Shown here: piece after piece, positions 1 to 17,467 of the stretch
How positions within the stretch are numbered: the first letter of the stretch is position 1
Layout: each line of letters starts with the position of its first letter
NCBI GenBank assembly: GCA_008636095.1
Contig: VSJD01000098.1
Coordinates: forward strand, 1 to 18,606
Origin: Kiritimatiellota bacterium
GTDB lineage: Bacteria > Verrucomicrobiota > Kiritimatiellia > JAAZAB01
Direction: 5' to 3'
Length of the DNA: 18,606 nt
Notes under the pieces: generated by a model
Told to the model about the DNA's origin: nothing
The model's database searches: none
What the model saw: the letters and a program-made list of their open reading frames with translations, nothing else
Made by a program: the position numbers and the translations under genes

Positions 1-1824
1 GCCCACTACCTGGTCCGCGCGCTTCAACAATGCCGGCGGAAGCGTCAGTCCGCACCGGGCGGCGTTTTCCGGATTGACCACCAGTCGTGTCCGGCTGACC
101 GGCCGGAACGGTATCGTGGCCGGCGATTCGCCGTGCAGGATACGTAACGCCAGATCGGCCATATCCCGGCCAACTTGTTCGTAATCACGCGCCACTGCCA
201 CCGCGGCGCCGCCATTAATTGCCTGGCCACTGACGAACGCCATCAATGGTTTCTGACACCGACGCGCGGCCTGGACGATGCCGGGAAACGACGCGTCGTT
301 AAGATTATCCGTTATCTGGCAAATGGCATCCACCGGTTTGGAGGCCAAGGCCATGGCAGCGTCAGGCACTTCCGTGCTGGTCGAGATGCCGACCGACTCC
401 AGTTCCAGCCCGCCGCGGCGGGCGGCCTCGGCAAGTGAATCCCGGTACAACACGGAATTAATCTCCGCGGGTACAAACAATGTGCCGATCCGCCGCGCGT
501 TTGGCAGGCACTCCTTCACCACCGCCACCATACCAGCAAAGTCACTGAGGGTCGAGATACCGGTTACGTTCGGCAGGTGCTGGGTAACGCTTTGGCCGGC
601 GCCGGCCAGCACAGGATTGCCGACCGCTCCGAACACAATTGGGATATCGCGGACTTTCTGGAGCACCGCCTGCAGGGTGGGCGTGGAAGTGAGTAAAATC
701 AAATCCGGCCGGTCATCGGCGGCGGCGGCGGCCATGGCCATGAGCGTGGCCATATCAGCATGCGCGTTCAGGATTTTAATGTCATATTCGCGGTTCCGGC
801 GCAAACCGTGGTACTCCAGGCGCTCGAAAAATCCCTGGCACGTTTCCTCCACGAACTGCGACTGCACGTAGTTTAGGAAAACCAGACGCCATTTGCGTTC
901 GGGCGGCGCGGCCTGTACCGGCGGACGGCCGATAACTTCATCCGCCCGATCAAGCAGTGATGCCGGGATAGTCAGGCCGCAGGCGGCGGCATTGACCAGG
1001 TTAATCACCAGCCGTGTTTTGCTGACCAGCCGAATGGGAATACGAGCGGGTGATTCGCCGCGCAGGACGCGCGCCGCCAGGTGTGCCGTATCCCGGCCGG
1101 ACTGTTCATAGTCCCGTGCGACCGCCACCACGGCGCCTCCATTGCGGGCTTGGCTGGTGGTAAACCCGAAGAGCGGCAGCTTCGTTTTCTGCACCACGCG
1201 GGTGATGCCCGCAAATGACGCGTCAATGATGTTGCCGATAACCTGGCAGAACCCATCAACATCCTTGCCGGCGAGCGCCATGGCCGCCTCCCAAATTTCC
1301 GAACTCGAGGTCACGGGTATGGCCACCAGGTCGATATTCGCTTTACGCAGGACGGCGGTCATGGTGTCTTTGTTGTAAATGCAGTTGTCCTCGCTGGAGG
1401 CGAAGAGCGTGCCCAGGCGACGGGCGTGGGGCAGACATTCCCGGATGACGCCTCCCATGGTTTCATAATCGCTCATGGTGCAGATGCCGGTTATGTTGGG
1501 AGCATGCTCTTCGAACGAAGGACCGATCCCGGCCAGCGTCGGATTAGCCACGACGGAAAAAACAATCGGGATGTTTTTCACACGCTGGGCGGCGGCCTGC
1601 AGGGTGGGCGTGGAGGTAAGCAGAATCAAGTCCGTGCGATCGCTATTGGCGGCATCCACCATGGCGACAAGATTAGCCATGGTGCCCTGCGCGTTGCTTA
1701 CCTTGAGCTCGTAGTCGTGGCCACGCACCAGCCCTGCCTTGGGGAGCTCGTCCCACAGGCCGCGTTCAAAATCCTCAACGAACGTGGATTCAGCATAATG
1801 CAGCAGGTGTATTTTCCATTTGCG
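1..1824 (-). repeat. Tandem intragenic duplication encoding domains 3 and 4 of the substrate-binding protein (309-codon period)
   Basis: Domain 3 (residues 719-1017, bases 1824-928) and domain 4 (residues 1028-1326, bases 897-1) align throughout with an offset of exactly 927 bp. Near-identical blocks include 'DLILLTSTPTLQA', 'DASF.GI', 'NGGA.VAVARDYEQ.GRD' and 'RKW' at the start of each unit. At the DNA level the stretch ctgcagggtgggcgtgga occurs at 670 and at 1597, 927 bp apart. The junctions carry a related linker ('GRPPVQAAPPERKW' against 'VGRPERKWK'). Domains 1 and 2 are recognisably the same fold but much more diverged, so 3 and 4 look like the youngest duplication. Confidence 0.9.
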
Positions 1825-3978
1825 CTCGGGCCTGCCCACCGACGCGTCCGGCGGAGCCTTGGCGAAGACGGAAGGCTCGGCGCAGGTGGGTGGGGCTGAC
1901 AAGCTCGAGGGTGCCGCAATTACGGGCGCCGCAATTGCAGTTGAGTTTGGCGCTATGACGGATATCGGGATGCCCGTGGTAGATAACTGATCCATGAGCA
2001 GGTCCGCGGGCACTTTGATCCCAAGCCGGTTGGCTTCGTCCCGGTTGATGACGATGGATTTAACCGACACATTGGTCATCGGGATCCCGGCTGGGCTCTC
2101 GCCGCCCAGCACGCGGGCCAAAAGCGGCGCCGCGCCCCGCCCGCTTTCATAATACCCAACACCGATACCCGCCAGGGCTTGGTCGGCCCTTGACGGATCA
2201 TCAGGAAACAGCGGAGTCCGGGCTTTACGGCAAGCCATGACCAGCGCATCAAAACCCTGGTAAACCGTATTGTCGCCGGGGATGTAAACGGCTTGAATCG
2301 GCCGTTCAAGGAGCGCTTGGGTGACTTGAGCCATATCAGCCGTGGTGTTCAGCGTTACCTCCTCAAGACGGATATCCCGTTGCCGGCACAAGTCACGCAG
2401 GACGGTGACCACTTTGACCGAGTTGGCTTCGCTGTTGTTGTAGATTACGCCAAGCCCGGTCAGGTTCGGAATCAGCCGCCGCATTAAATCAAGGGTCTCT
2501 TCCAGGGGCGGGAAAGATCCCACCCCGGTAACGTAGGGCAGATGGTCGGTCCAGGATTTCCCGATACCGGCGGCGATCGGATCAGTTACATAGGTGAAGA
2601 CCACAGGCTTATGCTTGACCATACTGGCGGCGGCCATGAGCACCGGTGTGGTAAATGTGACAATTACATCCACGTCACTGCTGTCCAGGACTTGGATGAC
2701 CGAAGGAATGGTGGCAATTTCGGCCTGTGCGCTGACCCGGCGGACGACCAGGTTACTACCTTCGGTGTAACCAAATTCGCGCAGACCCTCCAGCAGTCCC
2801 TTGGCGGCGGTCTCGTAACCTTGTTCCGGAGCAAAATAGGCGATTCCGATTCGGTAAGTCCGACCTGCGTCCGGGCGCTGTGAGACGGGTGCTGTTGCCG
2901 GCGATGGATTCTTATCGCGCAGGCCTTTGGCATCAATGACGATGGCCGCCGAGCGCATGATCTCCGGCGTGATTTTCCACGGATCACGCATTTTCGCCAG
3001 CGTAACCAGGTTGACGGCCAGCTTTTTGGGCACCATGTTTTCAATCGGCACACTGCGCGGATCGCGCCCGTTGAGGATTTCCACCGCCAGGTTGCCCGTG
3101 GCCTGGCCCACTTCATAATAATTGGCGCCCAGCCCCAGCAGGGCGCCGGTTTGGGCATGATCCGGCGCGTTGGCAAAGACCGGGATGCGCGCTTCCAGGG
3201 CCGGCTTAATCACGGAACCGGCCGTCATCTCCACAATGTTGTCACCCCCGATCCAGAGGGCCTGTGCATCCCTGGCCACCAGGGAGCGGGCCGCCTCCAT
3301 GACCTCGACCGTGCTCTGCACGGGCGCCTCCAGCAGGGTGATGTTCAGTTCTTTGCAGACCTCGCGAGCCAGCACGAGGCAGGCTTCCGAACAGGTTTCC
3401 GATGTGCACCAGACCACGCCGACACGGGCAAGGTCGGGGTAACACTGTTTGGCCAGCCGGAAAACTTCCTTGACGGGCTGGAACGTGCCGATCCCGGTCA
3501 GATGGCGCGGTCGGACGGCAGGACGCTTGCGATCAAATCCCACGCCGGAAAGGTAAGGGTCCGTGACCGTGCCGAACACGTGGACGACCTTGCCTTCCTG
3601 GTTGGCGCCGGCCAGGGTTTGTAAGGCCGGCGTGCTGAAGGTGATGGCCAGGTCGAACCCGCCGCCCACAATGGCTTTGGCAATCGTGTTGGCGGTGGGT
3701 AGATCGGATTCGGCATTAAAGCGCTGGATGAAAACTGTCTTATTCTGAATCAGGTTATGCTTGGCAAAGGCATCCAGACAACCGCGGACGCTGTCATCCA
3801 GGATTTGGCGGCTGGCGAACTGGAAGATGGCCACGCGCGGGAGTTTGCCCCTGGCGGCAGGCGCGGACCCACTGGGCCGCGCCCGCTGGCGGTGTTGCCG
3901 GTCGGATAACAGCAACACCGCCGCGGCAAGCCCAATGAGTGCAATTCCAAGCGCCAGACGTTTAAGAACGTATCCCAT
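1..3978 (-). CDS. Membrane-anchored protein with four tandem ABC_sub_bind substrate-binding domains (partial, runs off left edge)
   Basis: Reading the minus strand from the ATG at 3978 gives 1326 codons with no stop, and the frame is still open at base 1. AGGA at 3985-3988 lies 6 nt before the start. Residues about 4-24 (VLKRLALGIALIGLAAAVLL) form one hydrophobic segment with no lipobox Cys, so it is a signal anchor placing the rest in the periplasm. Four copies of the ABC_sub_bind fold (TrpX-like, PF04392) follow: residues 46-350, 373-665, 719-1017 and 1028-1326. Each carries a D-[LV]-I-x-x-x-[ST]-TP block, an 'xDPxxAGIG'/'xNPxLAGxG' block, a 'P(N)xTGI' block, a Y-E-x-G-R-x-x block and a final G-[ERD]-x-P motif. 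Linkers are Pro/Ala-rich. Family members usually have one ~300-residue domain serving an ABC importer or the sensory half of a signalling protein. No permease or ATPase for import is visible, so a multi-ligand receptor or sensor is the better guess. The C-terminal partner lies outside the window. Confidence 0.93.
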   Translation of the reverse strand, partial: MGYVLKRLALGIALIGLAAAVLLLSDRQHRQRARPSGSAPAARGKLPRVAIFQFASRQILDDSVRGCLDAFAKHNLIQNKTVFIQRFNAESDLPTANTIAKAIVGGGFDLAITFSTPALQTLAGANQEGKVVHVFGTVTDPYLSGVGFDRKRPAVRPRHLTGIGTFQPVKEVFRLAKQCYPDLARVGVVWCTSETCSEACLVLAREVCKELNITLLEAPVQSTVEVMEAARSLVARDAQALWIGGDNIVEMTAGSVIKPALEARIPVFANAPDHAQTGALLGLGANYYEVGQATGNLAVEILNGRDPRSVPIENMVPKKLAVNLVTLAKMRDPWKITPEIMRSAAIVIDAKGLRDKNPSPATAPVSQRPDAGRTYRIGIAYFAPEQGYETAAKGLLEGLREFGYTEGSNLVVRRVSAQAEIATIPSVIQVLDSSDVDVIVTFTTPVLMAAASMVKHKPVVFTYVTDPIAAGIGKSWTDHLPYVTGVGSFPPLEETLDLMRRLIPNLTGLGVIYNNSEANSVKVVTVLRDLCRQRDIRLEEVTLNTTADMAQVTQALLERPIQAVYIPGDNTVYQGFDALVMACRKARTPLFPDDPSRADQALAGIGVGYYESGRGAAPLLARVLGGESPAGIPMTNVSVKSIVINRDEANRLGIKVPADLLMDQLSTTGIPISVIAPNSTAIAAPVIAAPSSLSAPPTCAEPSVFAKAPPDASVGRPERKWKIHLLHYAESTFVEDFERGLWDELPKAGLVRGHDYELKVSNAQGTMANLVAMVDAANSDRTDLILLTSTPTLQAAAQRVKNIPIVFSVVANPTLAGIGPSFEEHAPNITGICTMSDYETMGGVIRECLPHARRLGTLFASSEDNCIYNKDTMTAVLRKANIDLVAIPVTSSSEIWEAAMALAGKDVDGFCQVIGNIIDASFAGITRVVQKTKLPLFGFTTSQARNGGAVVAVARDYEQSGRDTAHLAARVLRGESPARIPIRLVSKTRLVINLVNAAACGLTIPASLLDRADEVIGRPPVQAAPPERKWRLVFLNYVQSQFVEETCQGFFERLEYHGLRRNREYDIKILNAHADMATLMAMAAAAADDRPDLILLTSTPTLQAVLQKVRDIPIVFGAVGNPVLAGAGQSVTQHLPNVTGISTLSDFAGMVAVVKECLPNARRIGTLFVPAEINSVLYRDSLAEAARRGGLELESVGISTSTEVPDAAMALASKPVDAICQITDNLNDASFPGIVQAARRCQKPLMAFVSGQAINGGAAVAVARDYEQVGRDMADLALRILHGESPATIPFRPVSRTRLVVNPENAARCGLTLPPALLKRADQVVG

Positions 3979-4036: not shown

Positions 4037-4612
4037 TTACATCGTTTGTGCCAGCTTGCGCAGACCGAAAGCCATGATGATCATGGTGATTGCCAGCACC
4101 ACGGCGATGACGCCAACGATTTGCATCAATACCACGGCCGAAACGATCGGCGATTGGATCAGGATAACAGCGAAGATAATTCCAATAATGCCTTCCACGA
4201 GAAGCAACCATTTATGATCGCTCGTCTTCCACAGGCGCATGGCCGTTGCGATGCGCATGATGCCGGTGACCAGGACAAAGAAAGCCATCAGGTATATCAC
4301 GAATGCCTGGGTTACGAGCGCGCTCAGCAGTGGGCTGCTGAAAATGGCGATACCTGCCAGGATATAGAATATGCCGCCCAGGAGTGCCAGCCAGCGGGAG
4401 CCGCCCGTATGCCCCGTGATGGCGCTAATGATCAGCAGTACGCCATCCAAAAGGAAAAACACTCCCATCACCTGCACGATTCCGATCAGCATGCAAGCTG
4501 GTTTGAAAAAGGCAAACAGGCCAAGAATGATGGCCAGAATGCCGCGCAAGAGCATGACCCACCAAGCTCCGTGCAGAATCTCTCGAATTGCGCCGCCTTC
4601 TACTGTTGTCAT
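4037..4612 (-). CDS. HdeD family (DUF308) six-helix inner-membrane protein
   Basis: The 191-residue product is almost entirely hydrophobic, with six predicted helices at about 17-37, 41-65, 74-92, 97-120, 134-153 and 158-182. They are arranged as internally similar pairs, as in HdeD. The motifs 'RGILAIILGLFAFF', 'LLDGVLLIISAI' and 'LLGGIFYILAGIAIF' are typical of the family, and the length matches the usual ~180-200. In Escherichia coli HdeD contributes to acid resistance at high cell density, but the molecular activity of the family is not established. The start at 4612 is backed by AAGGGGA at 4619-4625 on the minus strand, 6 nt upstream. It lies 58 nt before the substrate-binding protein gene and 113 nt after the secreted-protein gene, all in one direction, so co-transcription is plausible. 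Confidence 0.88.
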   Translation of the reverse strand: MTTVEGGAIREILHGAWWVMLLRGILAIILGLFAFFKPACMLIGIVQVMGVFFLLDGVLLIISAITGHTGGSRWLALLGGIFYILAGIAIFSSPLLSALVTQAFVIYLMAFFVLVTGIMRIATAMRLWKTSDHKWLLLVEGIIGIIFAVILIQSPIVSAVVLMQIVGVIAVVLAITMIIMAFGLRKLAQTM

Positions 4613-4725: not shown

Positions 4726-5637
4726 TCAAGGATCGGTAGTAGCGGCCTTTTTACATGACAAGTCAACAAAACCGCGGACAGCGCTGATAAACGCATTAAT
4801 GTCCGTTTTCAACAGAGTCAGCATGGAAGGGTCTATGCCTTGGTTCATTTCCTTGGCCTTGAACAGGACTTGGATTTTGTCGGCGAAACGCGCTTTTTTC
4901 TGTACCAGGATATCCAGGGCGGCGGCAACGGTTTTTTGATCGGGTGGTGTCAGGTCCCGGTTGGATCGGAAAATGGCAACCTGGCTGTCGAAATCCGTGA
5001 GTTTGTTGTCAAACTGAACCGTAGTCATTCGATCGCCGGTAAGCAGGAATTTATGGGCGAGCGCCATGGATTCCACGCTGTCCCATTGCAGGCGGGCGAC
5101 GGCCTCGGCGGCCTTCAGGTCGCGGTTGTCGGTCCCGTAGGTAAGGATCAGGCAATTAAACAGGGCGCGCTCCAGCGCGTCAAAGGTGTAGTTAAAATGA
5201 TCCACACGGGCTGAAAATATGACAATCTCCTGCGGCAAATTATTTGTTTTCGGCGTATTCAGCGACGCCAGCAGGGATTGTGCCCCGGTCTGTGCGAGCG
5301 CCTTAGCCGAGATGACCGTTTCCATTGCCTGGTGAAGGTCCCGGTTGTTGGGCCGTTCCAAAAGGAGATAATTTTTAAGCTCCAGTAGGTTCTTGTCCGC
5401 TTGATTCATGCGGGATGAAAACCCGGCTTCGTGTTCCGGGTCCTTCGTCAGCAGGTAACGGTACGCTTCCCCAATACCGCCCATGGTGTTGCCATAACTG
5501 TCGCCGACCAATTGCATGATCTGGGCATCATCGTCCGTTAATGGCGTATTACGGCCGGGTATCTGGCCGGTTACCGGGAGGGCCATGGCGATAAAGGTTA
5601 GAATAATCACTGCGTACAGGGCAATTTTAGTAGTCAT
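4726..5637 (-). CDS. Secreted helical protein of unknown function
   Basis: The 303-residue product begins with a clear Sec signal: charged MTTK, a hydrophobic core at about 5-21 and a likely cleavage near 'LPVTG-Q' (residue 24). The mature part is predicted almost all alpha-helical with no further membrane segment. It contains amphipathic stretches such as 'NLLELKNYLLLERPNNRDLH', and the second half has 'ALDILVQKKARFADKIQVLF'. This reminds me of the helical-bundle periplasmic sensor modules of chemoreceptors and kinases, but as a free protein without an output domain, and I cannot name a family. Two cysteines are visible ('FNCLIL', 'LSCKK'). A GGAAAC element precedes the ATG at 5637. It sits between the acetyltransferase and HdeD genes, in the same orientation as the four-domain receptor, so a periplasmic accessory role is possible but unproven. 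Confidence 0.7.
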   Translation of the reverse strand: MTTKIALYAVIILTFIAMALPVTGQIPGRNTPLTDDDAQIMQLVGDSYGNTMGGIGEAYRYLLTKDPEHEAGFSSRMNQADKNLLELKNYLLLERPNNRDLHQAMETVISAKALAQTGAQSLLASLNTPKTNNLPQEIVIFSARVDHFNYTFDALERALFNCLILTYGTDNRDLKAAEAVARLQWDSVESMALAHKFLLTGDRMTTVQFDNKLTDFDSQVAIFRSNRDLTPPDQKTVAAALDILVQKKARFADKIQVLFKAKEMNQGIDPSMLTLLKTDINAFISAVRGFVDLSCKKAATTDP

Positions 5638-5716: not shown

Positions 5717-6484
5717 TTAGGGCGTAAAGACACTGCACAAATACAATGGATTTTCCCGAATGCGGCGACCGATTGTTTCCGCCATCGGGTGCGCCTTGAT
5801 AAGCCGCGACTCAGCCTGGCCGACCCGGCCATTAACCTGGATCCCCAGTGCCAACAGCTCCGGCTCAACCCGCGTATATTGACGCCTTAAGCCGGGCATA
5901 TGCGGATAGGTAGGCACTATCCAGGATCGCCCTTCCGTGTCGACGACAGTCGGCTTGAATAAAGCACAGCAGACAGTCGGGGCGCCATTGATATTCTCAA
6001 CCAAATGCAGGGTTGTATTATTGCTATGGGTCACCCCTAAAAGCAGAATACGTCCATCTGCCCGTACCAGTTTGTCATATGGAGAATTTTTACCCACGGA
6101 AACGTCGCAAGCTTGATGGTCTTTCAACAAGTCGGCGGCGCGCGGACCGAATCCGGCTGTGCAATGCGTGGGACTGAGCGAGCGCAACACACCGGGACGG
6201 CGGCGGTAGGTTTCGGTGATCAATCCCATTTCCGAAACGGAGGTGCGCAGGTCAAACACACAGCCGTGGCTCACCAAATCATGCTCGCCGCCTTTTTGAA
6301 ACGAGGGCATCAACAGCGTGCCGTTAATGCCGATGACATCTAACAAAGCGTCGATCACCGTCTCCGCTCCGCTCTCTACCTGGCCCAGCGCGGAAAGGGA
6401 ACTGTGCACTAGCACCGTGTCGCCGGATGCCAATCCCAAGTTTTGAAGATCACGAACAATTATGGCTCTGATTATCGTATCCAT
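5717..6484 (-). CDS. AAC(3)-family (aminoglycoside 3-N-acetyltransferase-like) N-acetyltransferase
   Basis: From the ATG at 6484 the product is 255 residues, close to the ~260-270 typical of the AAC(3)/YokD family. Recognisable family blocks are 'DTVLVHSSLSALGQVESGA', 'TVIDALLDVIGINGTLLMPS', 'VLRSLSPTHCTAGFGPRA', 'SPYDKLVRADGRILLLGV' and 'TTLHLVENI'. The last holds the H-x-x-E arrangement expected at the active site. The family transfers acetyl from acetyl-CoA to amino groups, classically position 3 of 2-deoxystreptamine antibiotics, but many environmental members act on unknown substrates, and resistance cannot be concluded here. The frame is open up to 6616. I chose 6484 because the family homology begins there and a strong promoter at 6520-6548 would lie inside any longer version. 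No Shine-Dalgarno sequence is obvious. Confidence 0.87.
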   Translation of the reverse strand: MDTIIRAIIVRDLQNLGLASGDTVLVHSSLSALGQVESGAETVIDALLDVIGINGTLLMPSFQKGGEHDLVSHGCVFDLRTSVSEMGLITETYRRRPGVLRSLSPTHCTAGFGPRAADLLKDHQACDVSVGKNSPYDKLVRADGRILLLGVTHSNNTTLHLVENINGAPTVCCALFKPTVVDTEGRSWIVPTYPHMPGLRRQYTRVEPELLALGIQVNGRVGQAESRLIKAHPMAETIGRRIRENPLYLCSVFTP

Positions 6485-6519
6485 GAGCAAAGCCTTGCCA
6501 GCGCCTGCCGTTGGATTGA

Positions 6520-6548
6520 AGTATACGGCAGGATTCGGTGGAAGGCAA
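6520..6548 (-). promoter_or_regulatory. Sigma70-type promoter for the AAC(3)-family gene
   Basis: On the minus strand, TTGCCT (6543-6548) is followed by a 17-nt spacer and TATACT (6520-6525). Both hexamers are near consensus and the spacer is optimal. Transcription would begin around 6513, giving a leader of about 29 nt before the ATG at 6484. It could drive the whole minus-strand series through the four-domain receptor. It is predicted from sequence only. Confidence 0.6.
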
Positions 6549-6632
6549 CCTTGTTTCATGTTAATTTTGCATCGCGTCAGTTTGGCGCATCCCGACCGTG
6601 TAGCGCATCGGGACACCCGGCCCGTGCCGACC

Positions 6633-7284: not shown

Positions 7285-7587
7285 TCATTTATTCTCTGGC
7301 TGACTCTTTGACAGCGGTTTATTGCCGGCTGTTGTCTCTGGGGCCGTCTTCTGGGTCAGGTCCTTGGCATCGTCCGCGGTGTGACCCTGGCGCCGTATAT
7401 AAACATAAAGCGGATACCAGTAATTGGTACAAAGCCATGCCAGTGCCGCCTGCGCGCTTACAGAGTCACTACAACCTGCCGCTAAAACAACGCTCCAATG
7501 TGTCGTTAAAAAGTATTCCGCACCGGGTTTTGGCCGGGGCGACTCCGTGGCAGGCGCAGGGGCGAGGAGCTTTTTGTGTTGCGGCAT
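7285..7587 (-). pseudogene. Truncated ECF-type RNA polymerase sigma factor (N-terminal remnant)
   Basis: From the ATG at 7587 (a TTG at 7614 is also possible) the product is ~100 residues. Its central part, 'FLTTHWSVVLAAG', 'ALAWLCTNYWYPLYVYIRRQ' and 'GHTADDAKDLTQ', matches the start of sigma-70 region 2 of ECF-like factors common in Verrucomicrobia and Planctomycetes. Just after 'DLTQ', where the family continues with an 'EFF..LL' helix, similarity stops and an unrelated Lys/Thr/Pro-rich tail of ~20 residues ends at a stop. The remainder of region 2 and all of region 4 are absent, and the other two minus-strand frames do not contain them, so this is a deletion rather than a single frameshift. 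It is unlikely to act as a sigma factor. Confidence 0.7.
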
Positions 7588-7678
7588 GCGCGCGGCTCCA
7601 AGAAACGAAGACAATGCGATATGTTACTTGTTGAAATTAAAAAGGGCAATGAATAATTTTTTCTAAAAACGGGTTGTA

Positions 7679-9123: not shown

Positions 9124-10146
9124 TATTTCCTCGCCAGTTTACCCTTCACTTTTGGGAATGTTGGATTATTGTGCGGGCTGTGGCGTGCCAGGCAATAATA
9201 CCTGTGCACAAACAAGGCGATCAGGTACAAATAAGAATATTTCCAGAACATCCCCTGGAAGCAAAATAGGCGGGCGAAATCTTTTACCGCCGTTAGGTCG
9301 CCATTTCTAACATGTTTCAGGAATATGCTTACATATTCGAAGAACCGGTTTTCTATTCCGGGGAGGAGGTTGTCGGCAAACAACCTCCGGACGACTTGTA
9401 TATGACTGTCCCTGAATTCATTTTTATTCCTGTTGCGCTCCATATTCTGCGGGTGGTATCGAACAAATGCCAGAGTCTCAGGATTGCGGCGGAAACAGCA
9501 CCCTTGGGCGGCGAGCACAAGCAAGAAATAGAGGTCTTCTCCAAGAGATAAATCAGGGGGGGAAGATGGTACCGTTCAAAGCATCATTGCGGATCAAGAC
9601 GGAGTTAATTGGCAAAGAGGACATCATCATTGATGTAACTGGATTGGAACAAAGGTCCGTCATGTCCAGAATTGATTTGGGTAAAAATGGCCGCAGATGC
9701 TCGCTGTCAACGCCGCCGCATTCGAAGATTAAAACACCCAGTCGGAGCGGATTCCACGGTCTCTTTATGCCGAACGACTTTCCCCGGCAAATCACAGCTT
9801 GTGTCGCCGGGTTTTCTTTGAAATATTCCAGCGAGCTTTCAAAATAGCATGGATGCAGCAGGTCGTCATCATCCAGAAAGACCAAGAACTCGCCCTGGGC
9901 AACAGCAATGCCCATGTTCCTTGCCGTTGAGCGCCCCCTGTTTTCCGGGAACCGATGAACGTGGATCATTGGGTGGAGCGCGCCGATCCGGTCAATCTCA
10001 AGCCGGTATTCGTCCGCCGAGCCATCATCGATGATCAGGATTTCGCAGGGACGGACAGTTTGAGCCAGGACAGAACTGACCGCCTGCTCAAGATAGGCTG
10101 GCCGGTTATAAGTGGGGATGATCACCGAAACACTGGCAGTCTTCAT
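9123..10146 (-). pseudogene. Family 2 glycosyltransferase, interrupted by a +1 frameshift in a G7 run
   Basis: The first part (10146 to 9553, 197 residues) is a GT-A fold: 'SVIIPTYNRPAYLEQAVSSV' at residues 7-26, 'ILIIDDGSADE' at 36-46, 'ENRGRSTARNMGIAVAQG' at 68-85, and the metal-binding LDDDD at 91-95. It stops right after 'GTIFPP'. Dropping one C from the run of seven (plus-strand G7, 9556-9562) continues into 'DLSLGEDLYFLLVLAAQG', the conserved acceptor-side ED motif of GT2 enzymes (E203, D204). The frame then runs to a stop at 9123. The repaired protein is 340 residues, and 1024 nt minus one gives exactly 341 codons. Either a sequencing error, a slippage-switched gene or a fresh pseudogene fits. 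As written, the product lacks the second half of the catalytic domain. Confidence 0.82.
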
Positions 10147-10183
10147 TGGTTTAGCCCGTATGCTTCAGGATTATCCATGTTCA

Positions 10184-10315
10184 TCAGTGTCCATTAATAG
10201 TTAACCCGCCGATATACCCCTGCATTTCAAATCGTTTTAAGGGCAAATAGATGGCCCGTCTTTCCATCAGGCAATACAGATCATAATTACGCCATCCGAC
10301 TATGACTCCTCGCAT
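10184..10315 (-). CDS. 43-residue ORF upstream of the frameshifted glycosyltransferase
   Basis: From the ATG at 10315 the minus strand encodes 43 residues ending at 10184, 37 nt before the glycosyltransferase start. The peptide looks protein-like: 'GWRNYDLYCLMERRAIYLPL', then 'KRFEMQGYIGGLTINGH'. It is rich in aromatic and basic residues. The frame extends upstream only to a TAA nine sense codons earlier, with an in-frame CTG/TTC stretch and no other ATG. A TATAAT box at 10331-10336 places transcription start ~9 nt before the ATG. It could be a real small protein, or the C-terminal scrap of a lost envelope-biosynthesis gene. I do not recognise a family. Confidence 0.35.
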   Translation of the reverse strand: MRGVIVGWRNYDLYCLMERRAIYLPLKRFEMQGYIGGLTINGH

Positions 10316-10330
10316 GAGTCTACGGAACAG

Positions 10331-10357
10331 ATTATAAACTTACGCTCAATTTTGCAA
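10331..10357 (-). promoter_or_regulatory. Candidate promoter (TATAAT) for the minus-strand glycosyltransferase/cyuA group
   Basis: A perfect TATAAT lies at 10331-10336 on the minus strand, with TTGCAA at 10352-10357 as a possible -35. The 15-nt spacer is shorter than ideal. The predicted start would be close to 10324, giving a very short leader to the ATG at 10315. The absence of a Shine-Dalgarno sequence before that ATG would fit near-leaderless translation. Confidence 0.4.
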
Positions 10358-10361
10358 GGAA

Positions 10362-10388
10362 ATAGCGTCTTCCCTATAGCGTCTTCCC
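10362..10388. repeat. Two tandem copies of a 13/14-bp sequence in the divergent promoter region
   Basis: atagcgtcttccc occurs at 10362-10374 and again at 10376-10388, separated by one T, so the unit is 14 bp. The pair lies directly upstream of the TATAAT at 10331-10336, roughly at -38 to -65 of the predicted minus-strand start. That is a usual place for an activator site. It is also between two divergent gene sets, so it could serve both, or be a simple local duplication. Confidence 0.6.
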
Positions 10389-10528
10389 AAAACAATAAGG
10401 TGCTTTGTCAAATCGCCTTATGCCCGACGTGACTGCTCCGGTAAATGTTTAATTGTGGAACACACACGATTTAGGTAGCATCGTAGAAAACTGGTCTGAT
10501 CGACGCACCTATTATTGGGCGTGTTGCC
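10389..10528. other. Non-coding leader region before the polysaccharide cluster
   Basis: With the 43-residue ORF, the TATAAT box and the 14-bp repeats, this completes the 382-bp gap 10147-10528. I see no ORF and no stable hairpin in it. It must contain the plus-strand promoter for the GT25 gene at 10529, but no convincing -35/-10 pair stands out, and no clear Shine-Dalgarno sequence precedes the ATG at 10529. Confidence 0.5.
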
Positions 10529-11425
10529 ATGAGGATATTTGTTATAAATCTGAAACGATCCGCGGATCGCAAGGTGCATATAATAAAGCAATTAGACAAC
10601 TTAAACATCGCTTACGAATTTATTGATGCGATTGACGGGCAGGGATTGTCCGATGATGAGATCAAGATGCACGGAGTGGACACCTTCCCCCCCTGGTTTT
10701 CTTTCAATCAAAGGCATCTGGTAAAGGGGGAAATTGGCTGCATCTTGAGTCATCTCGGAATCTACAGAAAGATGATCGATGAAGATATTGAATGTGCCTG
10801 CATATTTGAAGATGATTGTGTTTTTGAAAAAGATTTGGGAATTATATTGAAAAACGAGCAACTCAGAAGGTCCGATTATGAATTATTATTGCTTGGACAC
10901 TCGGGCCAATATCAAGATACCTCCCGTGGGGCTGAATGTTCCTCTAAAAAAGAGCCCGTGCTTTCTCGCTACCACATTGCGAAACCTGTTGAGCGTCCGT
11001 TTGGAACATACGCCTATATCATTAAGCAATGCGCGGCGCTTAAACTGCTGCAATACGCCTATCCATTGAGATTGCCGATGGATTGTCTAACAGGTCATGC
11101 ACAGGCAATCGGCGTGAAGTTGCGCATCCTCACCCCTCCCATCGTTACTCACAACGTCACCCTTGGCCCGAGCACAATTAATGATCGTGATTCGAATAGT
11201 CGTTTATATGTTTGTAAGGCGAGAAGGATAAAATGTATGGTTGGGCGTAAGTATCCAATATTAAGAATGATAAAAAAAATATGCCTATTCCCTTATGTAA
11301 CACTTCTCTTGAAGCTTAGGAAGGCGGGGATTCTTGATGGGGATTCGTATGCAGAAAAAAGATATTTTCGACAGAATTCATTGGCAAAATACCCCCAGCC
11401 GCCCGTCCCACGCAATGAGAAATAG
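10529..11425 (+). CDS. Glycosyltransferase family 25 (LPS-type beta-glycosyltransferase)
   Basis: The 298-residue product opens with the GT25 signature 'MRIFVINLKRSADRKVHI', then 'FIDAIDGQGLSDDE' (residues 31-44), 'GEIGCILSHLGIYRKMID' (67-84) and 'ACIFEDDCVFEKD' with the acidic EDD at 94-96, taken as the metal-binding triad of the family. Later blocks 'YAYIIKQCAALKLLQYA' and 'PLRLPMDCLTG' are also typical. GT25 enzymes transfer a sugar, often galactose, from a nucleotide donor to lipopolysaccharide or related glycans on the cytoplasmic face. The length is slightly above the usual ~250 because of a basic tail. It is the first gene of the plus-strand cluster and ends 9 nt before wzm. Confidence 0.9.
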   Translation: MRIFVINLKRSADRKVHIIKQLDNLNIAYEFIDAIDGQGLSDDEIKMHGVDTFPPWFSFNQRHLVKGEIGCILSHLGIYRKMIDEDIECACIFEDDCVFEKDLGIILKNEQLRRSDYELLLLGHSGQYQDTSRGAECSSKKEPVLSRYHIAKPVERPFGTYAYIIKQCAALKLLQYAYPLRLPMDCLTGHAQAIGVKLRILTPPIVTHNVTLGPSTINDRDSNSRLYVCKARRIKCMVGRKYPILRMIKKICLFPYVTLLLKLRKAGILDGDSYAEKRYFRQNSLAKYPQPPVPRNEK

Positions 11426-11434
11426 GCGGACATT

Positions 11435-12259
11435 GTGAACATGACTGAATATGAAATAAGATATCCCGACTGGCGTCGCTTTCATGTCCGTGAATGGTGG
11501 CTATATCGGGAACTTTTCTGGTTTCTGGCCTGGCGCGACATCAAGGTTAAATATAAGCAGACGCTGCTGGGTATCGGTTGGGCGATTCTACAACCCCTGG
11601 CATTGATGATCCTGTTCAGTCTGTTCTGGAAATGGGTCATTCATGTCAATACAGGCGTTCCCTATCCGGTCTTTGTCTATTCCGGGCTGATCCTCTGGGG
11701 ATTGTTCGCTTCCGGGGTCGGCAATGCGAGCAACAGTATGGTCGATCAGGCCAATCTGATTAAGAAGGTTTATTTCCCGCGCATCATTGTCCCGACAGCG
11801 GCTATCCTGGTTTCTCTGCTCGATTTTTTTATCGCCCTGTTTTTATATCTGGCCCTGCTCGTTTTTTATAACGTCAGGGTAAGCATTCCGACCTTTTTTA
11901 TTTTTTCCGCTATCTGCTTGCTGATTGTCCTTGTTTCAACACTGGGATGCGGGCTGTTTCTCGCGGCGGTGAACATCCGGTATCGGGATGTGAGGCATGC
12001 CATCCCCTTTCTTTTACAGCTCCTTTTTTTTGCCACGCCCGTTATATTTCCCCTATCGGTCGTCAAATCTGAAACACTCGCTCTTTTTCTCTCGCTCAAC
12101 CCGATGGCAGCCGCCATCCATCTTGCCAGGGTCGCCATTTCCATTGAAGCGATCAATTGGCAATTAACCGCAATGGGGTTGGCTTCGTCCTTTTTACTGC
12201 TTATGATCGGTCTGGTTGTATTCAATAGGAACGAAATTGATTGTGCGGATATCCTATGA
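11435..12259 (+). CDS. wzm: Wzm-type ABC transporter permease for polysaccharide export
   Basis: The product has up to 274 residues and six transmembrane helices at about 50-69, 77-95, 119-145, 152-178, 189-209 and 244-264. It carries the ABC2_membrane features of polysaccharide exporters: 'WRDIKVKYKQTLLGIGWAIL' before helix 1, 'LIKKVYFPRIIVP', 'GLFLAAVNIRYRDVRH' and the closing 'FNRNEIDCADIL'. With Wzt it moves the finished, lipid-linked glycan across the inner membrane. Start is GTG at 11435 or ATG two codons later (11441), and AGGCGG lies just upstream. The stop overlaps the wzt start (ATGA), so translation of the pair is coupled. Confidence 0.93.
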   Translation: MNMTEYEIRYPDWRRFHVREWWLYRELFWFLAWRDIKVKYKQTLLGIGWAILQPLALMILFSLFWKWVIHVNTGVPYPVFVYSGLILWGLFASGVGNASNSMVDQANLIKKVYFPRIIVPTAAILVSLLDFFIALFLYLALLVFYNVRVSIPTFFIFSAICLLIVLVSTLGCGLFLAAVNIRYRDVRHAIPFLLQLLFFATPVIFPLSVVKSETLALFLSLNPMAAAIHLARVAISIEAINWQLTAMGLASSFLLLMIGLVVFNRNEIDCADIL

Positions 12260-13491
12260 AACCAATCCTCGAAATAAAATCCATCTCCAAGAAATACGCC
12301 ATCCATAAGAACCAGCCGCGTTATCGGACGCTACGGGACAGCCTTGCCGCCTGCTTCAGAGATCGCCAGGGCATGCAGGAATTCTGGGCACTTGACAACC
12401 TTTCTTTTAACATTTTTCCAGGCGAAAAATGGGGGATTATCGGAGAAAACGGAGCCGGGAAAACAACACTTCTCAAAATACTTGCCAAAATTACGCCGCC
12501 CACCAAAGGGAGCATTCTGGTGCGAGGCAGGGTGGCCAGCCTGCTCGAAGTGGGAACGGGATTTCATCCTGAATTGACGGGGAGAGAAAATATTTTTCTC
12601 AACGGCGCCATCCTAGGCCTGTCCAGGCGAGAAATTCTGAATAGATTCGATCAAATCGTCGATTTCGCCGAGATTGAGACGTTTCTGGATACGCCGGTCA
12701 AACACTATTCCACCGGCATGTGGGCGAGGCTGGCATTCTCTGTGGCAGCCCATCTCGATCCGGATATTCTATTGATCGATGAGGTTTTATCCGTGGGCGA
12801 CGCCGATTTTCAAAGCAAATCCCTCGGGAAAATGAATGAAGTATCTCGACAGGGACGGACCATCCTGTTTGTCAGCCACAACATGGCAGCCGTGCGGCAA
12901 CTCTGTACGCATTGTGTATGGATCAGCAAAGGCAAGATAAAACTTATCAGTGCCCCTGACGAGGTGATTGACGCCTATTGCTCATCAAACGAATCTAACG
13001 AACAGGGGTTTGCCGAATCAGCGAGTTTTGCACATCGCAGGGGCTCACAGGATGTGTGTCTCCAGCGGATTGAACTGCGAAACCAGCATGGCGAGATGAC
13101 AGGCGTCTATGCCATTGGCGATGACTTGCATATCCACTTGTTCATCGAACCCTCCGCGACCTTGAAAAAAGTGAGAATAATCGTCAGTATTTTCGAATCC
13201 AACGGCGACTGTGTCTGTACTATGTACGACAATGACTCTGGTTTTTCCCTGCGGGATATTTCCGGGCCACGGCATGTGTCTCTCAATATGGCGGATCTGA
13301 GGCTCTGTCCGGGCCAATACCGTATTGATGTCGAGTTGCTCAGTGAAATATTCCACTATCAATACGATGCTTACGATATCATCGAATCGTGTATCGTATT
13401 CAAAATGGTTAACAAAAGTGCCATCAATCGGGGTCTGAAGCGACACTGGGGCCTGTTGTATCTCACCCCTGAATGGACTATCCATGAATAA
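12256..13491 (+). CDS. wzt: Wzt-type ABC transporter ATPase with C-terminal carbohydrate-recognition domain
   Basis: From the ATG at 12256, which overlaps the wzm stop, the product is 411 residues. A TTG five codons upstream is possible but the overlap argues against it. The nucleotide-binding domain shows Walker A GENGAGKTT (63-71), the atypical signature 'YSTGMWARLAFS' (154-165), Walker B ILLIDE (174-179) and the switch His211. After about residue 245 comes a ~165-residue beta-rich domain ('SQDVCLQRIELRNQHGEM', 'IHLFIEPS', 'GQYRIDVELL') like Wzt-C of E. coli O9a. In such systems this domain binds the modified non-reducing end of the glycan and licenses export. That implies a terminally capped polymer. 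No capping kinase or methyltransferase is visible in the window. Confidence 0.93.
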   Translation: MKPILEIKSISKKYAIHKNQPRYRTLRDSLAACFRDRQGMQEFWALDNLSFNIFPGEKWGIIGENGAGKTTLLKILAKITPPTKGSILVRGRVASLLEVGTGFHPELTGRENIFLNGAILGLSRREILNRFDQIVDFAEIETFLDTPVKHYSTGMWARLAFSVAAHLDPDILLIDEVLSVGDADFQSKSLGKMNEVSRQGRTILFVSHNMAAVRQLCTHCVWISKGKIKLISAPDEVIDAYCSSNESNEQGFAESASFAHRRGSQDVCLQRIELRNQHGEMTGVYAIGDDLHIHLFIEPSATLKKVRIIVSIFESNGDCVCTMYDNDSGFSLRDISGPRHVSLNMADLRLCPGQYRIDVELLSEIFHYQYDAYDIIESCIVFKMVNKSAINRGLKRHWGLLYLTPEWTIHE

Positions 13492-13494
13492 TGA

Positions 13495-14325
13495 ATGGTA
13501 GAGGTCATGCCTGTAAAACCTGCTATATCAATTGTTTGTCCCTGTTTTAACCATGGCCGCTATGTCCCGGAGATGTTGGCGTCGGTCCATGCGCAGAGTT
13601 TTCCGGACTATGAAGTCATCATTGTCAATGATGGATCAACAGATGGCACCAAAAAAATACTGGACAATCTTCATCACGAAAAACTCACCGTTATTCATAC
13701 GCAAAATCATGGTCCGGCCGCAGCCCGCAATACAGCGATTGCCGCGACCAAGGCGCCGCTTATTTTCAATCTCGATGCCGACGATAAAATCGCGCCGTCC
13801 TTGCTTGAAAAGGCATTCGCGGTTTTCAGCACCAGTCCGGATCTTGGCATTGTGCACAGCGAAGTGCAATTCTTCGGCGCCCGTTCGGGAAGGTTTGAGT
13901 TGCCGCCCTATTCCCTTACAGCCATGTTGCAAGACAATATCATTCATTCAACAGCCCTTTTCAGGAAGGAGGATTGGAAAGCGGTGAGCGGTTATTCCGA
14001 TGAGCTGATCTATGGATTGGAAGATTATGATTTCTGGCTCTCCATCATCGAATTGGGAAGAGGGATTTACAAGATCCCTGAAGACCTGATATTTTACAGG
14101 ACATATAAAAATCTGGGTGATTGTCGTTCGGGCAAGGTAAAAAAGTGCCGTAGAAAAATTATACGCACACAGCTAACCATCTTTCGAAGGCACGAACAAT
14201 TGTTCAAGGCGTGTCCCGAAGAATACGAACGCATGCTAAAATTGAAAAAGGTATGGGAAAATGAACCTTTCGCTGTCCAATGGCTGAAACAGATTTATTA
14301 TTCATTGCGGTATACCATTCGTTAG
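13495..14325 (+). CDS. Family 2 glycosyltransferase
   Basis: The 276-residue product has 'ISIVCPCFNHGRYVPEMLAS' (11-30), 'VIIVNDGSTDGTKKIL' (41-56), 'NHGPAAARNTAIAATKA' (71-87), the metal-binding NLDADD (92-97) and the later acceptor-side block 'YGLEDYDFWLSIIELG'. The set is complete for an active GT-A enzyme. It follows wzt by 3 nt, so coupling is likely. ATG at 13495 or ATG at 13507 (four codons later, with AGAGG close before it) are both possible, and the catalytic domain starts after either. Being inside the export operon, it most likely adds a sugar to the polymer. Donor and linkage cannot be read from the sequence. Confidence 0.9.
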   Translation: MVEVMPVKPAISIVCPCFNHGRYVPEMLASVHAQSFPDYEVIIVNDGSTDGTKKILDNLHHEKLTVIHTQNHGPAAARNTAIAATKAPLIFNLDADDKIAPSLLEKAFAVFSTSPDLGIVHSEVQFFGARSGRFELPPYSLTAMLQDNIIHSTALFRKEDWKAVSGYSDELIYGLEDYDFWLSIIELGRGIYKIPEDLIFYRTYKNLGDCRSGKVKKCRRKIIRTQLTIFRRHEQLFKACPEEYERMLKLKKVWENEPFAVQWLKQIYYSLRYTIR

Positions 14326-14333
14326 AGCATAAG

Positions 14334-15329
14334 ATGAAAAAACCAATTTTTTCGATAATTATAGCTACCCACAAAAGGCCGCGCCTTCTTGAAAGGGCGA
14401 TTCGAAGTGTTCTGAACCAGACATTCCGGGACTTTGAATGCATCGTGGTGGATGACGCGGGCAATACGGGAACGGCGCAAATTGTGCAGCAATTTGAAGA
14501 CCGCCGAATCGTTTTGTTGCAACATGCACAAAACAGGGGGGCGGCGGCCGCGTACAATACGGGGATCAATGCCTCCCGGGGTTCCCTGATTGCCATATTG
14601 GATGACGACGATGAGTACTACCCAACCTTTCTGGAAAAAATGCAGCATTTTTTCCAGGCGGCGCCTGCCCGCATAGGATTTGCCTGGACTGGAATTAGGC
14701 TGGTAATGGATACGCCGGAAGGGGAAACATTGTTGAATGAAAGGGTCTGGCCGACCAACATTCAGCCGAGGGAGGCCGCATATGTAGAAGCGACCACTAT
14801 CGGCAATAATTTTGGTTTGACAATGAGAAAGGAATGCATTGATGCTGTTGGGCTGTACAATGAAACATTTCGGGTTTGCGTGGATACGGAGCATTTGTTC
14901 AGATTGGCCAGGAGATTCGACTTTGCAACCATTCCTGAAATACTGGTCAAGATCCATCACCATAAAGGCGGACAGCTTACTCATCGAGACCAGGATAAGC
15001 TCCGATTAGAACTTCACGAAAGGATCTTGATGGAGAACGCCGATTTTATCGCGTCCTATCCTAAATTGTACCACGTCCATTACTGGCGACTGGCTCAGAT
15101 TAGTTATTCCTTGCAGATGAATAAAAAAGGCCGGCAAATTTTATCGAAAATGTGGAAGAACACACCCGGACGCCTTTCTTTACCTCTCGATTTTATCTGT
15201 TATGAATGGTGCGGGATCGATGCGGCGACCGTTTGGGGCCAAAGCAGAGCAAGAAAGGTTTTGTCACGCGTGAGGAGAGCTCTCTATCAGAGGAAAGACT
15301 CACGGGAAATAAAAAAGCTGGACAGGTAA
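14334..15329 (+). CDS. Family 2 glycosyltransferase
   Basis: From the ATG at 14334 the product is 331 residues. An in-frame start at 14280 would overlap the previous gene by 46 nt and add 18 residues outside the fold. GT2 blocks are 'FSIIIATHKRPRLLERAIRS' (6-25), 'FECIVVDDAGNTGT' (34-47), 'QNRGAAAAYNTGINASRG' (66-83), ILDDDDEYY (88-96) and an acceptor-side 'VCVDTEHLFRLARRF', where D-T-E replaces the common G-E-D. The C-terminal ~100 residues are basic and helical and could bind the membrane or a lipid-linked acceptor. It starts 8 nt after the previous gene. Confidence 0.9.
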   Translation: MKKPIFSIIIATHKRPRLLERAIRSVLNQTFRDFECIVVDDAGNTGTAQIVQQFEDRRIVLLQHAQNRGAAAAYNTGINASRGSLIAILDDDDEYYPTFLEKMQHFFQAAPARIGFAWTGIRLVMDTPEGETLLNERVWPTNIQPREAAYVEATTIGNNFGLTMRKECIDAVGLYNETFRVCVDTEHLFRLARRFDFATIPEILVKIHHHKGGQLTHRDQDKLRLELHERILMENADFIASYPKLYHVHYWRLAQISYSLQMNKKGRQILSKMWKNTPGRLSLPLDFICYEWCGIDAATVWGQSRARKVLSRVRRALYQRKDSREIKKLDR

Positions 15330-15357
15330 GCATTGCAAGAGGCTGGAAACAAACTTT

Positions 15358-16418
15358 TTGACAATATCTGGATATGATTTGTGGGATAAGTTTGTCGATG
15401 ACTCCCCGCAAGGGGACGTGTTCTGCTATTCCTGGTGGCTGAAGGTCGTTACGAAGGATGACTTCAAAATCCTTGCCGTGTGGGAGAATAGCCAAATTGT
15501 CGCCGGCATCATCTTGCCTTTTTATGGCACCGGGAGAATCAATGAACCCTATCTTACGCGCACCGTTGGGGTTCTTTACAAGAAAGCGGATAATGAATCG
15601 CCCCGGAAACGGCTGTCAAAAGAGCGCAAGTGGTTAAATGCCCTGCTGGATCGGGTCGATATCAACAATGTCGTTCAGATGTGCATGCATCATAATTTCA
15701 AAGACTGGTTGGCTTTCCGGTGGCGGGGATATAAACAGACAACACGTTATACCTATATCCTGGATTATCGCCAGTCTACACTGAAAGACATGTGGGCAAA
15801 TATCAGTAGGAGACAAGTACGGGGAATCAAAACAGCCCTAAGAAACAAGCTCACGGTAGAGGAAGGCGATGATATCGCCTCTGTCTATGCCTTCAGCTGT
15901 CTGTCATTTGACAGACAAAATTTGAGGTTTCCCTACTCGTTAAACGATCTGCAGCGGCTGGACAATGCTGTGAAGAAACGGGGGGAACGGACGATCTTTC
16001 AGGTAGTTGATGCCAGTCGCCGCATTTGACACCAATTATGTTGTCTACCATGATAAATCCGCCTACCATCTGTTGAGCGGCGGCGATCCGCAGCTCAGAT
16101 CATTGGGAGGTCACACGCTCATTTTATGGCACACCCTCAGATATTTCAGTGACAAGGTGCCTGTTTTCAATTTTGGCGGGTCTGATCTTCAACCGATAGA
16201 AGAGCATATAAGAGGTTTTGGGGCGCACCCAGACGCAATATTTCCATATCTTCAACGAAGCCCTGGTCTCGAACCGGGAGGGATTGCGATATCACGGAGC
16301 CCAAATGCTTTCCCATGGGCGAGAGATTTTGAGGGATTTGCGGTACAGACCGTTCAAAGAGCATCCCGTATTGTCCTATAAGTTGCTTAAGCATCTATCA
16401 TGCAAAATGTTGAAATAG
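15358..16418 (+). pseudogene. FemAB/GNAT-like acyltransferase (Acetyltransf_6) split by two +1 frameshifts
   Basis: Three consecutive frames together encode one protein. Frame 1 runs from a TTG at 15358 to a TGA at 16027-16029. It carries 'FCYSWWLKVV', 'YKQTTRYTYILDYRQS' and 'WANISRRQVRGIKTALRNKL', typical of the FemAB-like N-acyltransferase superfamily. Removing one T from 16025-16027 continues as 'VDASRRIDTNYVVYHDKSAY', then 'HLLSGGDPQLRSLGGHTLIL'. Removing one G from 16220-16223 continues as 'RGFGRTQTQYFHIFNEALVS' to the TAG at 16418. 1061 nt minus two gives exactly 353 codons, 352 residues, the normal length for the family. Relatives add amino acids to peptidoglycan or acyl groups to sugars from aminoacyl-tRNA or CoA donors. 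AAGAGG lies 15 nt before the TTG, so the true start is uncertain. Confidence 0.82.
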
Positions 16419-17434
16419 AAATGTTTAAAACTATCCGGCCCCGAAAAATCCGCCTCGACGCGTCAACGCTCTGCCAATTGCGCTGCCCCTGTTGCTCCAC
16501 TGCAGCACGTAAGATTGAACCTGCCATAGGATTTGGTTGCCTTAAGTTTAAGGATTTTAAAAAGCTGCTCGATGAAAACAGATATCTAAAAGAGATCGAA
16601 CTCTCCAATTATGGTGAAATATTTCTGAACCCGGAACTTGATTCGATAATTAAGTATGCTTACGAAAAAAAAGTGCGTCTCCTGGCTGAGAACGGGGTCA
16701 ATTTCAACACTGTAGCGGACCAGATGCTCGAAATGCTGGTGGCATATCGTTTCCGCCTTTTGCTAATTTCCATTGACGGCGCCTCACACCAAACCTATCA
16801 GCAATACCGGGTCAATGGAAATTTCGCCATGGTTATCAAAAATATCAGAAAATTGAATAATTATAAATCATTGCATGACTCAGACTATCCTCGCTTAATC
16901 TGGCAGTTTGTCATTTTCGGGCACAATGAACACGAAATACCTTTAGCAAAAAAAATGGCCCAGGACTTTGGTATGCGCTTCATTCTAAAACTGTCTTGGG
17001 ATAGGCATTTTTCTCCAATCAAAAACCTTGATTTTGTAAAAAAAGAAAGTGGCCTTCCCGTTTCCGACTGCGAAGCGGATCAGGTAATGCAGGGAGCAGA
17101 ATACGGAGCCTCTTTTTGCCGGATGCTTTGGGAAGAGCCGCAAATCAACTGGGATGGGAAAATTCTGGGATGCTGCTGTAACCATTGGAGACAATTCGAC
17201 GGGAATGCCTTTACAGACGGGCTTGTTCCCGCCTTGAACAGCGAATCGATCACCTATGCAAGGGCAATGCTGCAAGGCCTGAAGCCATTGCGGGAGGATA
17301 TACCCTGCGCAACCTGTGATCTGTACCTAGAACGCGCCAAAGCAAATCAATGGTTGAAACGAGGCGTAAATATGACGGCGTTTCGGGTAAAATCCCGGTT
17401 GCGCAAACTAATTCATTATGCCTTGGATCAGTAA
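16400..17434 (+). CDS. Radical SAM enzyme with SPASM-like C-terminal Fe-S region
   Basis: The 344-residue product has the S-adenosylmethionine cluster motif C-x3-C-x2-C at Cys25, Cys29 and Cys32 ('LCQLRCPCC'), followed by 'IELSNYGEIFLNPEL' (the G-E of the SAM-binding sheet) and 'LLLISIDGAS'. The C-terminal third holds extra cysteines typical of SPASM or twitch auxiliary clusters: Cys240, Cys258-260 ('QINWDGKILGCCCNHW') and Cys303/Cys306 ('IPCATCDLY'). Such proteins modify peptides or sugars by radical chemistry. Within glycan clusters their substrates are mostly unknown. The ATG at 16400 overlaps the repaired acyltransferase by 19 nt, and an ATG at 16421, 2 nt after that stop, is a plausible alternative that keeps every motif. 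Neither has a good Shine-Dalgarno sequence. Confidence 0.88.
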   Translation: MQNVEIEMFKTIRPRKIRLDASTLCQLRCPCCSTAARKIEPAIGFGCLKFKDFKKLLDENRYLKEIELSNYGEIFLNPELDSIIKYAYEKKVRLLAENGVNFNTVADQMLEMLVAYRFRLLLISIDGASHQTYQQYRVNGNFAMVIKNIRKLNNYKSLHDSDYPRLIWQFVIFGHNEHEIPLAKKMAQDFGMRFILKLSWDRHFSPIKNLDFVKKESGLPVSDCEADQVMQGAEYGASFCRMLWEEPQINWDGKILGCCCNHWRQFDGNAFTDGLVPALNSESITYARAMLQGLKPLREDIPCATCDLYLERAKANQWLKRGVNMTAFRVKSRLRKLIHYALDQ

Positions 17435-17467
17435 AATCATTTTTTATATAGCTTAGAGATATTTGAC

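Follow-up and report, generated by a model that had tools for sequence, protein, structure and literature searches.

The DNA analysed here, referred to as the window, is an 18,606-nucleotide contig (VSJD01000098.1) that forms the whole of piece C182 of the assembly of a Kiritimatiellota bacterium, and its first bases hold most of a gene for a receptor protein built as a chain of substrate-binding domains (SBDs). This gene lies on the minus strand (1..3978) and is free of stops from an ATG at position 3978 down to base 1, a run of 1326 codons for which the chance of an equally long open frame at the base composition of the window is about 8e-28. When read into the neighbouring piece C181, the protein reaches a full length of 1328 amino acids, the final two codons and the stop being located there, with the stop overlapping the start codon of the gene for a STAS-domain protein (ATGA).

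Pfam assigns four ABC_sub_bind (PF04392) stretches to the receptor chain (whole-protein E 1e-192), and a profile search of the organism's own genome returns the same four places, each above cut-off, which bears out the four tandem receptors that a preliminary description, made from the letters alone, had read in this frame. PF13407, the second-ranked family, falls just below its cut-off (34.9 vs 35.1), and no family other than PF04392 exceeds the Pfam cut-off on the chain. From the N-terminus, the protein comprises a hydrophobic helix (residues 2-32; 3883..3975, on the minus strand like all parts of the chain), an SBD of type A (residues 45-342; 2953..3846), a 30-residue linker (2863..2952), an SBD of type B (residues 373-662; 1993..2862), a 56-residue linker rich in Ala and Pro (1825..1992), a first SBD of type C (residues 719-1010; 949..1824), a 17-residue linker (898..948) and a second SBD of type C (residues 1028-1319; 22..897). 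An AlphaFold model of residues 1-1010 (mean pLDDT 86.5) contains the helix at 2-32 and three two-lobed, well-folded domains, separated by low-confidence stretches at residues 31-44, 357-365 and 664-715, the last of which falls in the Ala/Pro-rich linker; its pTM of 0.42 leaves the arrangement of the domains unfixed. The best matches of the receptor domains among solved structures are 3lkv, 3lft and 6hnj/6hni, of which 3lft has bound L-Trp and 6hni is described as a substrate-binding protein.

The N-terminal helix, which coincides with a hydropathy peak at residues 1-28, probably serves as an uncleaved membrane anchor. The first 45 residues contain no Cys and hence no lipobox. Among 125 multi-domain receptors, a strongly hydrophobic stretch near the N-terminus was detected in 121 and a lipobox-like motif in 2. 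This agrees with the membrane anchor proposed in the preliminary description.

The four SBDs share 25-30% protein identity with one another, except for the last pair at 53%. An assembly duplication, collapse or expansion as the source of the four domains, which had been named as a way in which the description could fail, is ruled out because the DNA of the domains has diverged (42-58% identity, with a longest shared exact run of 20 bases) and because four-domain relatives of 1340, 1302 and 1341 amino acids are located on other contigs. All eight other pieces of the same genome whose lengths were examined (C181, C125, C156, C210, C67, C106, C183 and C180) measure exactly 10,000 bases, which suggests that the assembly was cut into pieces and that this edge is artificial, so genes at the window edges may be artificially cut. 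The STAS gene of a congeneric genome (L025) matches C181:8730-9995 at 86%, and when the window is joined to C181 the receptor chain gains two residues, ending in VVGQP. The strongest support for this junction is that the relatives P0002 and P0004 share the VVGQP end and that P0003 ends in IVSQP. As a weak control, a 709-amino-acid frame continues for about 40 codons over the C180/C181 junction and a 274-amino-acid frame likewise crosses from the window into C183, so the crossing of a frame alone proves little. The output domain suspected beyond base 1 does not exist: the protein stops two residues on, with no kinase, cyclase or fifth repeat.

Behind the receptor chain, and on the same strand, follow the genes for the STAS protein (422 amino acids), a permease (BPD_transp_2, PF02653, E 1.8e-28), an ABC ATPase (PF00005, E 1.7e-27), a CN_hydrolase-GDPD protein and an RNA methyltransferase. 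The earlier remark that no transporter genes adjoin the chain thus holds inside the window and fails beyond base 1. A search of the genome (E up to 0.1) returns a single BPD_transp_2 permease, and no further PF04392 domain was found at E 0.001 in the 3.8 Mb available (87% complete); with neither another such domain nor another such permease found, the adjoining importer most likely uses the chain as its binding protein.

The STAS protein (L037:8730-9995 on C181) combines a STAS domain with a rear domain of about 290 residues, and it has 989 relatives at E 0.001 or better, the best 120 of which are listed (P0122-P0241). The rear domain adopts the alpha-acetolactate decarboxylase fold and belongs to no Pfam family. 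PF03306 was detected on none of 49 members at E up to 1, and hhalign of the rear domain against decarboxylases gives a probability of 5% over 24 columns, so that the link to these enzymes is one of fold. An HxH motif (residues 354 and 356) and His 390 are invariant in the 49 members. The HxH and third histidine of alpha-acetolactate decarboxylase are presumably metal-binding; the third His of the STAS proteins is spaced differently from that of two PF03306 proteins, in which HH/GGH comes about 11 residues after HxH. In the STAS domain, the phospho-site residue S48 is invariant (49 of 49) and aligns with a serine of 1th8 whose counterpart in 1tid is Ala. A single search of the openly licensed literature of PubMed Central did not find the combination of STAS with a decarboxylase fold.

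Receptor chains of this type recur in several bacterial groups. The preliminary description took one domain per polypeptide to be usual for the family, which does not apply to this branch: in the window protein and the best 120 of its 218 relatives, 100 proteins carry 3 SBDs, 19 carry 4 and 2 carry 5, proteins below 0.55 of the query length having been left out and shorter chains hence being uncounted. Source names of the listed receptor relatives include Verrucomicrobiota, Planctomycetota, Omnitrophica, Methylococcus and Methylovulum, and those of the listed STAS relatives also include Acidobacteriota, Binatia and Nitrospinae; the few receptor relatives for which a source gives a protein name are labelled as ABC transporter substrate-binding protein, as a putative tryptophan/tyrosine one or as hypothetical protein. 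With the receptor as probe, 9 of 58 related genomes match, the organism's own included, and two genomes found in this way (G037 and G048) have the chain set too. PF04392 as such has a scattered distribution in the phylum, with matches in 9 of 59 genomes (7 above cut-off).

The operon layout is equally recurrent. When the STAS protein was used as probe across 387 genomes of the phylum (threshold 1e-40, at most four candidates scored per genome), 15 genomes matched at 1e-40 or better, and all 12 matches with E below 1e-90 display a chain of 2-4 domains, STAS, permease and ATPase in that order; at the three weaker matches, no chain or transporter is seen in the stretch fetched. In the order of Methylovulum (201 genomes, threshold 1e-60, nine or fewer candidates scored for most genomes), 11 genomes match and a chain of 2 or 3 domains adjoins STAS in 10 of them. 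The permease occurs at all 11 of these loci and is cut by a contig end at one, the ATPase thus being seen at 10, and at one locus (L106) STAS and permease are about 1.7 kb apart. A permease is present at each of the 23 loci counted. The layout is also found at L026 and L027, with 3 and 2 domains, respectively.

The SBDs of these chains fall into distinct types. A tree was built with 165 domains, drawn from 48 of 126 proteins (every protein whose domain count differs from three, plus a choice of the remainder), and separates a first-domain group (A; 48 domains, support 0.96), a second-domain group (B; 48 domains, 0.90) and a third-or-last group (C; 61 domains, 0.997). Seven third domains form a cluster of their own (support 1.0), whose tie to the third-or-last group has a support of just 0.2 and which may represent a separate type. 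The window chain reads A-B-C-C, its last two domains being a younger duplicate pair. Several domains stand out of position: domain 2 of P0008 in the first group; domains 3 and 4 of P0008, domain 4 of P0007, domain 3 of P0018 and the second of the two domains of L027 in the second group; and domain 2 of both P0028 and P0022 in the third. The types are kept across phyla, mostly by position, which favours different tasks for the domains over a plain chain of equal copies.

The binding pocket was compared with that of TrpX of S. suis, for which an excerpt of PMC9382623 names A127, T108, T129, D152 and N233 as ligand residues and Q273 as less conserved. Positions were mapped by pairwise alignments to 3lkv, 3lft and 6hni together with a profile alignment of 451 domains, some counted twice, and the statistics cover 410 distinct domains of multi-domain proteins, typed by identity to the window's domains rather than by the tree. 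T108 is kept as T in 131 of 131 type A, 135 of 136 type B and 141 of 143 type C domains. The acidic residue D152 is retained as D in none of the 131 type A domains, in 11 of 136 of type B and in 9 of 143 of type C. N233 remains N in 135 of 136 type B and 137 of 143 type C domains, and in 32 of 131 of type A, where it appears from the alignment to be either poorly kept or poorly aligned. All four window domains have T and N at the positions of T108 and N233, and T, S, T and T at that of D152. The three types differ from one another at A127 and T129. Five single-domain proteins were also compared at D152, which is D only in L045, where a permease and an ATPase adjoin; the other four have S, L, N and, in a fragment of the interrupted G037 chain, T.

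Several ligands were considered. The receptor chain scores 628.8 bits, summed over its four stretches, against the TrpX equivalog NF041285 (cut-off 390 bits); with the acidic D152 missing, the ligands are unlikely to be alpha-amino acids resembling tryptophan, and tryptophan was not accepted on the strength of the family name. A nucleobase was hinted at by L104, where a gene for a xanthine/uracil-type permease fused to HATPase_c_2 (L104:3217-5031) is divergent from a STAS-permease-ATPase set; among 40 stretches longer than 4500 bases, the fused form occurs nowhere else, and this candidate was kept as a lead only. Elsewhere, the receiver gene in a chain operon is followed by genes for a carbonic anhydrase, a distant xanthine/uracil-type permease and a STAS protein (L109:7657-10474). 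An acetolactate-like ligand, hinted at by the fold of the STAS rear domain and by two decarboxylase genes near chains, was likewise retained merely as a lead. PF03306 is present in 10 of 25 carrier genomes in 14 copies, just 2 of which are near a chain, one each in G382 and G257. An alpha-acetolactate decarboxylase gene lies immediately upstream of the chain at L065:5709-6473, and another three genes, or about 3.4 kb, upstream at L068:2053-2811, near an HATPase-like and a SpoIIE gene. On contig C52 of the congeneric genome G003, PF03306 and PF07228 matches are about 70 bases apart.

Signalling genes accompany some of the relatives, as recognised by likeness to Methylovulum proteins bearing the respective Pfam domains. 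Of the 11 loci from the Methylovulum order, 7 have histidine kinase, SpoIIE, HATPase or receiver (REC) genes nearby, and HATPase or SpoIIE genes are near 3 of 12 loci in the phylum (L062, L065 and L068) and near L027. PF07228 was located within 10 kb of the cluster in 6 of 22 genomes, compared with 0.55 expected (Poisson 2e-5), and in 1 of 12 genomes of the window's phylum, compared with 0.28 expected; the cases are not independent because five of the six fall in one order. In G506 and G532, the sole PF07228 gene found sits in the chain cluster. At L026:13172-18700, the chain operon is followed by genes for a two-STAS protein (224 amino acids), a chemotaxis receptor (MCP), CheW and CheR.

The explanation preferred here, to which a probability of about three in four is attached, is that the receptor chain is the substrate-binding subunit of a single TrpXYZ-type ABC importer, characterized by an anchored chain of several domain types, a shared permease and a link to STAS. 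It draws at the level of sequence on the four domains, the hydrophobic helix, the gene order and its recurrence, the domain types, the lost acidic pocket residue and the phospho-site serine of STAS. The membrane helix would hold a flexible chain of four SBDs in the periplasm, where each SBD, once loaded, may dock on one shared permease dimer driven by the ATPase of the operon. With three diverged types (A, B and two C), the chain probably collects more than one ligand of a related kind, tryptophan-like amino acids most likely not being among them. A probable role of the STAS protein is to bind the ATPase, in the manner of MlaB on MlaF, or to respond to partner-switching kinases and phosphatases, and it would thereby gate or report transport. 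A number of observations weigh against this explanation. Among the four other genomes of the genus, the chain is present in G003 only; G001 gives no match, and G002 and G004 match only the N-terminal 75 and 49 residues of the receptor, with no SBD in the stretch fetched. In G003 itself, two opposite-strand frames lie between STAS and permease, the G037 chain is interrupted by a stop, and at L104 the STAS, permease and ATPase genes have no chain beside them. A scan of the genes surrounding the window's chain, covering many but not all frames there, identified no kinase, phosphatase or receiver gene of the partner-switching kind. Furthermore, the first C domain of the window has G beside the conserved N, where most have D, so that a domain may have lost binding.

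A different emphasis would make the chain mainly a receptor, with loaded domains or the working transporter signalling through STAS either to chemotaxis proteins or to the SpoIIE phosphatase and HATPase kinase of a partner switch, and import being secondary. The partner-switching and chemotaxis genes near relatives, the excess of PF07228 near clusters and the invariance of S48 speak for it; however, the PF07228 excess stems largely from one order and is slight in the window's phylum, the window's own locus offers no signalling gene among those scanned, and every locus counted has a permease, and it is held to be the less probable account. The sensing role advanced in the preliminary description survives only in changed form, through the STAS protein and the signalling genes near some relatives, and not as a free-standing sensor. 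A kinase or cyclase with an extended sensory region is very improbable: the gene of a PF04392 protein does adjoin a histidine kinase gene in Methylovulum (L028), but the window protein ends two residues past base 1 and the relatives P0002, P0003 and P0004 end in the same or a similar way.

It has also been considered that the extra domains just boost local concentration or reach, all binding one ligand. Such an avidity effect would fit the window's four domains having their solved matches in common and retaining the TP motif, and the two C domains being a younger duplicate pair; the distinctness of A, B and C across phyla, mostly by position, and their differences at A127 and T129 make it unlikely. 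The most elaborate proposal, in which the transporter doubles as a multi-input sensor, combines elements of importer and receptor: chained receptors for several ligands would share one importer, and the STAS protein, with a metabolite pocket of decarboxylase fold, would read the load from within the cell and feed a partner switch controlling the cellular response. This is regarded as speculative and rather improbable in its entirety.

Other genes follow in the window upstream of the chain. A DUF308 (HdeD-like) membrane protein is encoded just upstream of the chain (4037..4612, minus strand), in the same order as in the congeneric genome L025, and is followed by a gene for a 303-amino-acid protein without Pfam or NCBIfam match (4726..5637, minus strand), in whose place the congeneric genome has a 307-amino-acid frame. 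An acetyltransferase gene of the Antibiotic_NAT family (PF02522) lies at 5720-6616, and a 109-amino-acid frame without Pfam family at 7285-7614 resembles, by eye, the start of a longer gene. Positions 9553-18415 hold a polysaccharide cluster comprising glycosyltransferases, an ABC-2 export pair with Wzt_C and a radical SAM gene, with a G+C content of about 45-49% compared with about 60% in the receptor gene.

In the system described here, which spans several bacterial phyla, two to five receptor domains, mostly in fixed type order, make up a separate protein beside an unusual STAS protein, and it becomes testable how one channel serves several receptors and whether transport can drive partner switching. 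No description of a multi-SBD chain of this kind was found in the openly licensed literature of PubMed Central, where papers on GlnPQ, OpuA and others came up, as judged from titles and the starts of abstracts. To our knowledge, few ABC importers with more than one receptor have been described, and in these the receptors are fused to the channel subunit. OpuA has its SBDs fused to the transmembrane subunit. GlnPQ is built likewise and has two SBDs of different specificity, with a 14-residue loop between them (excerpt of PMC8025302). Both share with the present system the use of multiple binding domains per importer and differ from it in this fusion, since the domains here number 2-5, form a separate protein and belong to another family.

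TrpXYZ, a tryptophan importer listed as family 34 in a table of PMC3654945 (seen in excerpt), resembles the window's system in the family and fold of its binding domain (NF041285; PF04392) and in having one BPD_transp_2 permease gene and one ATPase gene. It has one SBD, whereas the window has four of three types; in addition, D152 is replaced here and the operon encodes an additional STAS protein. The pairing of a STAS domain with an ABC transporter has its counterpart in MlaFEDB, in which MlaB binds the ATPase MlaF and has Thr52 at the phospho-site of other STAS proteins (excerpt of PMC7367683); unlike MlaB, the STAS protein described here is extended by a further domain (about 290 residues), and its transporter has PF04392 binding domains. 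RsbV and SpoIIAA share with it the STAS fold and the position of the phospho-acceptor serine, and SpoIIE and HATPase genes are found near some relatives, whereas fusion to a domain of alpha-acetolactate decarboxylase fold and placement in a transporter operon set the present protein apart.

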